Shown here in pieces: positions 5,350 to 54,046 of a stretch of DNA of 55,689 nt. Source of the DNA: Candidatus Methanophagaceae archaeon GoMg1 (GTDB taxonomy: Archaea; Halobacteriota; Syntropharchaeia; Alkanophagales; Methanospirareceae); NCBI GenBank assembly GCA_013180605.1, contig QBUL01000187.1, positions 1 to 55,689 of the forward strand, given 5' to 3'. The notes beneath the pieces are model-generated. The model was not told where the DNA came from, did no database searches, and saw only the letters and a program-made list of their open reading frames with translations. Position numbers and translations under genes: made by a program. Positions within the stretch are counted from its first letter, which is position 1. Every line of letters begins with the position of its first letter.

Positions 5350-5475
5350 TCATTTTTTGGTAAACAACTTCCTTATCCCCGCGCCAACCGTCTCAACCTG
5401 ATGCTTGCCTATCTTCTCTCTGCTCTCTTTCAAGAACTGGATACCTCTTTTGTATTCCTCAACCCATTCATTTGC
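5350..5475 (-). pseudogene. 3' fragment of a second ilvC
   Basis: The 126 bases encode the last ~41 residues of ketol-acid reductoisomerase, ending in a stop at the same place as the intact ilvC at 21439. Shared text includes FLKESREKIG and HQVETVGA, with several substitutions and about 85-90% DNA identity by eye. The homology stops abruptly at TTTGCA, where a plus-strand gamma-lyase fragment starts. This is a broken duplicate joined by a rearrangement; the intact copy is elsewhere in the window. Confidence 0.85.
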
Positions 5476-6032
5476 AACCCCACGTTTTCAGAGACCATTA
5501 AAATTGAGTGCGGACGCTGCTGTTCATAGCAGTACAAAATACATAGGTGGTCACGCAGATATTTTAGGAGGTGTCATTGTCGGAAGAAAAAAGCAGATGA
5601 GCGGTTTTGGTGGTATGATCTCTTTTGGAATCAAGGGCGGAGGCACAGTCTAAAAATCTAGTGATTTATCACCGCGGAGAGCGCAGAGTACGCAGAGTTT
5701 TAAGATGATTTTATCCTTGTTGAGTTTCCTGATGTCTCCGCGTGCTCTGCGGTGAAATTCAAGGATATAGAGATTTCACTAGAAAATTCGACAGTGCCAA
5801 GGGCGGAATAGAGGAGGGACGCAAGCTCATGAACCGCGTTGAACGGTGTACTTTAGCGGTTAGCCTCGGGTACGTTGATACCGTAATACAACATCCGGCA
5901 TCTATGACCCACGCGAATATACCCCGAAAGGTCAGGTTGAAGATTGGGATAACCGATGATTTGGTGCGACTCTCTGTCGGTATAGAAGAGCCAGAAGACA
6001 TAATAGCAGATCTGGAACAAACATTAAGCTAA
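5467..6032 (+). pseudogene. Cys/Met-metabolism PLP enzyme (gamma-lyase/synthase), 5'-truncated and split by a 157-bp insertion
   Basis: The left part (to 5641) encodes FATP.FQRPL and VHSSTKYIGGHADILGG, the region around the PLP-binding lysine (STKY) of the methionine gamma-lyase / cystathionine gamma-synthase family. The right part (from 5799) encodes [30 protein letters not shown] and the usual C-terminus ending [11 protein letters not shown]. The N-terminal ~190 residues are absent. Between the parts lies a miniature transposon. Deleting it with one copy of the 9-bp duplication restores [14 protein letters not shown] in frame, so the insertion is what split this remnant. Confidence 0.88.
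5642..5798. mobile_element. 157-bp MITE with terminal inverted repeats and 9-bp target duplication
   Basis: Ends: GGCACAGTCTAAAAATCTAGTGA at the left and the inverted GGCACTGTCGAATTTTCTAGTGA at the right (18 of 23 positions match; shared core GGCAC.GTC.AA...TCTAGTGA). It is flanked by AAGGGCGGA at 5633-5641 and again at 5799-5807, a perfect 9-bp target duplication. The interior carries a nested palindrome (CACCGCGGAGAGCGCAGAG ... CTCTGCGGTG) related to CCGCAGAG repeats at 40936 and 53930. No transposase is encoded, so it must have moved in trans. Confidence 0.9.
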
Positions 6033-6098: not shown

Positions 6099-6547
6099 AT
6101 GGTAAAAGTCTTGGGTCACAGAGGCTGTGCAAGCATAGAGCCTGAGAACACGATTAGGGCTTTTAAGAGAGCAATGGATTTAGGTGTGGATTTTATTTAA
6201 AGATTGTAACGAAAGAAGGGTTGAGCAGTAAAGTCATTATAGTTTCTTTCTGGCACGATGTATTGAAGAGAATTAAAGAGATAGAACCGGAAATAAAAAC
6301 CGGAGCTATCTTTGTTGGCAGACCCGTGGATACAGTATCAATAGCAAAAGCAGCTAAATCAGAATTGATATGCCTGAAACACAAATTCATTGATGAGGAA
6401 GTCGTAGTGGAATGCCACGAAAATGACATTGAAGTCAATGCATGGACCGTGAACGAGATAGAGGATATAGAAAGGATGAAGGAATTAGGTGTTGACATAA
6501 TAAGCAGTGACCATCCAGATAGGGTCTTAGAAGAATTAAAATCATAA
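6099..6547 (+). pseudogene. Glycerophosphodiester phosphodiesterase, internally deleted and frameshifted
   Basis: The frame from ATG at 6099 encodes MVKVLGHRGCASIEPENTIR and continues to a stop at 6198; HRG...PENT is the catalytic start of the GDPD family. From about 6209, in another frame, follows a typical GDPD C-terminus (VIIVSFWHDVLKRIK, VNAWTVNEIEDIERM, GVDIISSDHPD). The two pieces together give about 145 residues against 230-250 in the family, so the middle of the barrel is gone and the frame is broken. It stands next to two other broken genes. Confidence 0.85.
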
Positions 6548-40855: not shown

Positions 40856-40935
40856 TTTCTTCTCTCCCCTCCCCTTTTGTATAAGATTTTAGCCTTTTTT
40901 ATTGTATCTAATATAGTAAGTTGATAGTATTAGAT

Positions 40936-41115
40936 TAACCGCAGAGTTCACGGAGAACGCAGAGGGGGTAAATTTTAGATTAGGGCTAGGGAACCAGATA
41001 CCTAACACCTAATTCTCTCTGTGAACTCAGCGTTCTCTGCGGTAAATTTTGAAATGTGACATTGGCATTGCTCGTTTCATCTGTGTTAATCTGCGTTAAT
41101 CTGTGTCTATAATCA
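40936..41115. repeat. CCGCAGAG palindrome plus GACGCAGATT repeat
   Basis: TTAACCGCAGAGTTCACGG and GAACGCAGAGG pair with CTCTGTGAACTCAGCG and TTCTCTGCGGTAAATTTT over a ~110-base inverted repeat. Joined on the right by TGACATTGGCATTGCTCG, TTTCATCTGTGTTAATCTGC and GTTAATCTGTGTCTATAAT. The composite appears inverted at 53868-54046. Confidence 0.8.
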
Positions 41116-53859: not shown

Positions 53860-53867
53860 AAAATAAA

Positions 53868-54046
53868 TTGTTGACACAGATCAACGCAGATTAACACAGA
53901 TGAAACGAGCAAAGCCAATGCCACATTCCAAAATTTACCGCAGAGAACGCGGAATTAGAGGTTTCGTTTATTAGCGGTTCAGCTCGTTAGCTAAACCTCC
54001 AAACCGCTATCCTCTGTGAACTCTGCGGTTAATCTGACATCGTCAA
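53868..54046. repeat. Inverted copy of the composite GACGCAGATT/CCGCAGAG repeat
   Basis: GACACAGATCAACGCAGATT, AACACAGATGAAACGAGCAA, CCAATGCCACATTCCAAAAT, TTACCGCAGAGAACGCGG, and CTCTGTGAACTCTGCGGTTA. Reads as the inverse of 40936-41115, including the unique linker (GAAACGAGCAA..CCAATG.CACATT). Confidence 0.8.

Follow-up and report, generated by a model that had tools for sequence, protein, structure and literature searches.

Within the window, by which we mean the whole 55,689-nucleotide stretch of DNA analysed here, probably from a methane-eating archaeon, two pieces of a decayed gene for a Cys/Met-metabolism PLP enzyme (PF01053) are separated by a short element with inverted ends and a direct duplication of the target on either side. 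The features of the locus are as follows.

5471–5641, plus strand: upstream piece of the decayed PF01053 gene
5633–5641, plus strand: left copy of the 9-bp target duplication, AAGGGCGGA (from the sequence and a repeat finder)
5642–5798, plus strand: entire miniature transposon (MITE), 157 bp (family consensus 168 bp)
5642–5664, plus strand: left terminal inverted repeat, GGCACAGTCTAAAAATCTAGTGA, corresponding to the 3' end of the autonomous insertion sequence (IS)
5669–5697, plus strand: left arm of the core fold-back, TCACCGCGGAGAGCGCAGAGTACGCAGAG
5736–5755, plus strand: right arm of the core fold-back, CTCCGCGTGCTCTGCGGTGA
5776–5798, minus strand: right terminal inverted repeat, GGCACTGTCGAATTTTCTAGTGA (minus-strand reading), corresponding to the 5' end of the autonomous IS
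5799–5807, plus strand: right copy of the target duplication, AAGGGCGGA
5799–6032, plus strand: C-terminal piece of the same PF01053 pseudogene, beginning with the 9 bases of the right target duplication

The coordinates that an initial annotation, made from the sequence, had proposed for a 157-bp element with terminal inverted repeats proved exact, and 23-bp ends were found at both borders. The two ends are 78% complementary according to the repeat finder, and the end motif GGCACNGTCNAANNNTCTAGTGA matches each of them with 0 mismatches, these being its only two matches in the window when up to 3 mismatches are allowed (0.04 expected). The perfect duplication described at 5633–5641 and 5799–5807 is likewise present, and since the 10-nt match returned by the repeat finder includes the last C of the element, the duplicated target is 9 bp long. 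Neither a transposase frame nor any other open reading frame lies inside the 157 bp, in agreement with the claim that no protein is encoded there. The interior folds back on itself via CACCGCGGAGAGCGCAGAG and CTCCGCGTGCTCTGCGGTG, and about 11 bp of it are missing relative to the 168-bp consensus. The element is a MITE: it is short and non-coding, has inverted ends and a target duplication, belongs to a multicopy and polymorphic family, and has its ends in common with an autonomous element that bears a transposase.

Copies of the element and their target duplications

The search of the whole genome with the 23-base end, which had been recommended as a check, recovered further copies, some of them with duplications of 8–9 bp. 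The assembly from which the window comes (2.34 Mb in 189 contigs, 86% complete) gave about 42 related matches by blastn, and with up to 2 mismatches allowed the end motif was counted 65 times, whereas the reversed pattern used as a control gave 0. Twenty-four full-length copies were aligned to derive the consensus, the ends being conserved across copies, and the nearest full copy is 92% identical to the one in the window. When both flanks of 38 full copies (25 from the same genome and 13 from relatives) were scored, a perfect duplication of 8 or 9 bp was present in 14 and one with a single mismatch in another 3, while about half of the 38 had no clear duplication; none of 756 control pairs, in which the left flank of one copy was combined with the right flank of another, gave a duplication. 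Among 48 genomes of the same archaeal family that were searched, 27 contained strong matches to the MITE (E about 1e-15 or better), and outside that family a match of about 1e-15 appeared in one distant genome only. The end motif GGCACNRTCNAANNNTCTAGTGA can be used as a marker of IS and MITE insertions across the family.

A second MITE subfamily of 167 bp, with the ends GGCACAATCGAAAAAACCAG and GGCACAATCGATTTTTCTAG, was also recovered (L062, 3359–3525; L061, 1359–1525), and its copy in L062 is flanked by the 8-bp duplication GTTTCAAG. Elsewhere, one insertion with the same outer flanks occurs in two species (L008, 1501–1668, in the window's own genome; L145, 1501–1672, in the relative G004) and has a target duplication in neither; it is an older insertion common to both.

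The partner insertion sequence and its transposase

It had been claimed that a transposase encoded elsewhere must have moved the element. This stands in so far as there is an element that has these ends and bears a transposase gene; for the window's own genome, only a frame-shifted copy and a remnant of the gene were found in the 189 contigs of the 86% complete assembly. There, one pair of end motifs encloses a 1931-bp element (C126:12011–13941) that has no clean duplication and whose transposase gene undergoes a frame shift near an A8 run, and a deleted remnant of the gene lies in C154. In the own-genome IS copy (L059, 2490–2580) the frame shifts at a run of eight A, where the homologue of G011 has a continuous frame; decay of the copy, a slippery site and an error of assembly are all candidate causes. 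Better preserved elements occur in relatives. That of G004 (L082, 1009–2655) is 1647 bp long, has the same ends, a perfect 9-bp duplication (TGATTAGGC) and an open frame of 398 aa, and that of G011 (L083, 83–1727) carries, in 1645 bp between the same ends, an intact transposase of 439 aa, without a duplication.

The two ends of the IS are unlike each other, TAATTTTCTAGTGA on the 5' side and TAAAAATCTAGTGA on the 3' side, and the MITE carries one of each: 24 of 26 positions agree between the MITE left end and the IS 3' end, and 21 of 23 between the MITE right end and the IS 5' end, whereas the wrong pairing gives only about 18–19 of 23–24. Since the similarity between MITE and IS is confined to these 23–26 bp, the interior of the MITE does not derive from the IS as found, and the link between the two rests on their ends and on the length of the duplication. 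It is conceivable, though unlikely, that a different IS with similar GGCAC ends, for example one in the missing 14% of the genome, mobilised the MITE instead of the IS66-like element, because each MITE end departs from its IS counterpart at 2 positions and the second subfamily (GGCACAATCGA...) shows that several end variants are circulating; this is countered by the one-to-one pairing of left and right ends with the IS found here and by the 8–9 bp duplications that both produce. With this IS family as the partner, its transposase would bind both MITE ends in trans, cut or copy the MITE and join it to target strands staggered by 8–9 nt, and host repair would then create the 8–9 bp duplication.

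The best NCBIfam match of the transposase was IS66, at 29–37 bits against a cut-off of 180, followed by ISL3 in a single homologue (26.5 bits, cut-off 180) and IS256, likewise in one homologue (21.6 bits, cut-off 150; absent from the results of the two others). The catalytic region matched the Pfam family DDE_Tnp_IS66 (PF03050) above the Pfam cut-off in two of three homologues. Because all NCBIfam scores fall below their cut-offs, the element is best regarded as an unassigned DDE IS near the IS66, ISL3 and Mutator-type enzymes, and the partner enzyme is a zinc-ribbon DDE transposase of about 440 aa in that neighbourhood. The conserved blocks LYDEQ, VVTDLY and ENYYS plausibly hold the D, D and E positions; an AlphaFold model with a mean pLDDT of 44.5 was too poor to confirm them, and the order of its secondary structure elements does no more than hint at an RNase-H-like core. 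Sequence comparison with the PDB gave no match, neither the transposase nor the end motif had a copy in viral contigs, and a search of plasmids returned only archaeal relatives at about 21–26% identity.

Among known systems, IS66 is approached through its best NCBIfam match and the PF03050 catalytic region; IS66 ends begin with GTAA, whereas those of the partner, which stays below the NCBIfam cut-off and has a single ORF, begin with GGCAC. The ISM1 group (ISfinder) is archaeal and makes 8–9 bp duplications. Prokaryotic IS of the Mutator superfamily, such as IS256 and ISH6, also produce duplications of 8–9 bp (PMC3942029), as the MITE family does. The likeness to IS256 comes from weak profile similarity in one homologue of the partner transposase, which lies far below the IS256 cut-off and has an N-terminal zinc ribbon, and the likeness to ISH6 passes through a distant relative in Halococcus. 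Prokaryotic MITEs such as the SM elements of Sulfolobus and those of haloarchaea resemble the element in size, lack of an ORF, terminal inverted repeats, target duplications, copy numbers in the tens and similarity to the partner IS mainly at the ends (PMC10969869; PMC3852290), while the ends themselves and the partner transposase are different.

Decay of the host gene and the empty site in relatives

Intact relatives of the PF01053 gene, with frames of about 395–419 aa, were found in other genera only; one of them (L126) is a 419-aa open frame for a Cys/Met-metabolism PLP enzyme. In the window, the upstream piece lacks the N-terminal half of the gene: the remnant starts at about FATPRFQR, so that the N-terminal ~190 residues are absent, and an in-frame deletion of 222 bp (74 codons) separates VVGRK from KKQMSGFGG, with its junction at about 5587–5590. 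Two genomes of the same genus, G001 (L129) and G004 (L160), have the uninterrupted site that comparison with relatives had been expected to reveal, although it lies within the pseudogene. The G001 site aligns without gaps to the joined flanks of the window and has a single copy of the target; in the syntenic locus of G004 the site is likewise empty, and the GDPD-type (glycerophosphodiester phosphodiesterase) gene that follows it is the same as in the window, at 94–97% identity. The empty site in both indicates that the MITE insertion is lineage-specific. The locus is a complete MITE case in uncultured archaea, in that its ends, the partner IS, the target duplications and relatives with an empty site are all documented; literature searches on MITEs or transposable elements in the same archaeal group found no description.

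The N-terminal truncation and the 222-bp deletion recur in both relatives, neither of which has the MITE, and since then the remnant has acquired damage of its own in each, a stop in G001 and in G004 and additionally a deletion in G004. As the truncation and the 222-bp deletion are common to genomes without the MITE, decay of the gene came first and the MITE later, which corrects the order of events implied by the initial annotation, an insertion into a working gamma-lyase gene. Its observation that the frame becomes open once the element and a single duplicate are taken out is correct locally; no gamma-lyase is restored, however, and the open frame at the junction is no sign that a working gene was hit. 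It is therefore highly improbable that a functioning gamma-lyase gene was knocked out by the MITE in the lineage of the window, even though the MITE sits between two PF01053 pieces and the joined flanks keep an open frame: besides the lesions common to G001 and G004, each with its own later damage, intact PF01053 relatives are known in other genera only. This scenario is refuted unless the common lesions arose independently at identical breakpoints. The target is an already dead gamma-lyase-type pseudogene, and insertion into a dead gene was probably neutral.

Taken as a whole, we regard it as nearly certain that the feature is a non-autonomous MITE that carries both distinct ends of a ~1.65-kb IS, whose DDE transposase of ~440 aa has a zinc ribbon and stands close to the IS66, ISL3 and Mutator-type enzymes, and that landed in an already dead gamma-lyase-type pseudogene. 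Downstream, the GDPD-type gene of the window (6107–6544) lacks about 238 bp of the syntenic G004 locus, with the junction at 6196/6197, and is thus a decayed gene as well.

Fold-back repeats within and beyond the MITE family

The DNA fold of the element is stronger than that of shuffled sequences (z = -3.4), a property that would fit a structured RNA gene or a regulatory cruciform of the host, but the target duplications, the empty sites, the dispersal of copies and the match of the ends to an IS, together with an Rfam search in which nothing credible and no family near threshold was found, leave such a non-mobile origin next to no probability.

Longer forms of the MITE, of 303–325 bp (L037, 1501–1803; L038, 1501–1814; L046, 1199–1523), carry an additional fold-back of the GACGCAGATTTACGCAG / AATCTGCGT type within their core, and in L037 and L046 this nested fold-back is bordered by direct repeats resembling TTTTCTGGT. 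The pattern in these two suggests that a miniature element was inserted in another and subsequently multiplied with it. Our results raise the tentative possibility, which we hold with rather less than even confidence, that the partner represents an undescribed IS family, marked by 8–9 bp duplications, GGCACNRTCNAA ends and a DDE transposase that has a zinc ribbon and lies between the IS66, ISL3 and Mutator-type enzymes, that it is largely confined to one archaeal family including Methanophagales (ANME-1), and that its MITEs became longer as they captured fold-back repeats nested within each other and reached more than half of the genomes searched there.

The palindrome CCGCAGAG in the interior of the element recurs in the window, as had been noticed, with 6 occurrences against 0.86 expected. 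The proposal that these recurrences are MITE interiors did not hold, since the other paired sites, at 40936–41045 and 53938–54028, are without GGCAC ends and belong to a different dispersed fold-back family that overlaps the MITE over about 30 bp of the core only. At 40936–41045 and 53865–54031, the arms CCGCAGAG...CGCAGAG adjoin a stretch of the form GAAACGAGCAA(T/A)GCCAATG(T/C)CACATT / AACGCAGATTAACACAGATG, and the stretch at 40900–41090 has 48 matches in the window's own genome.
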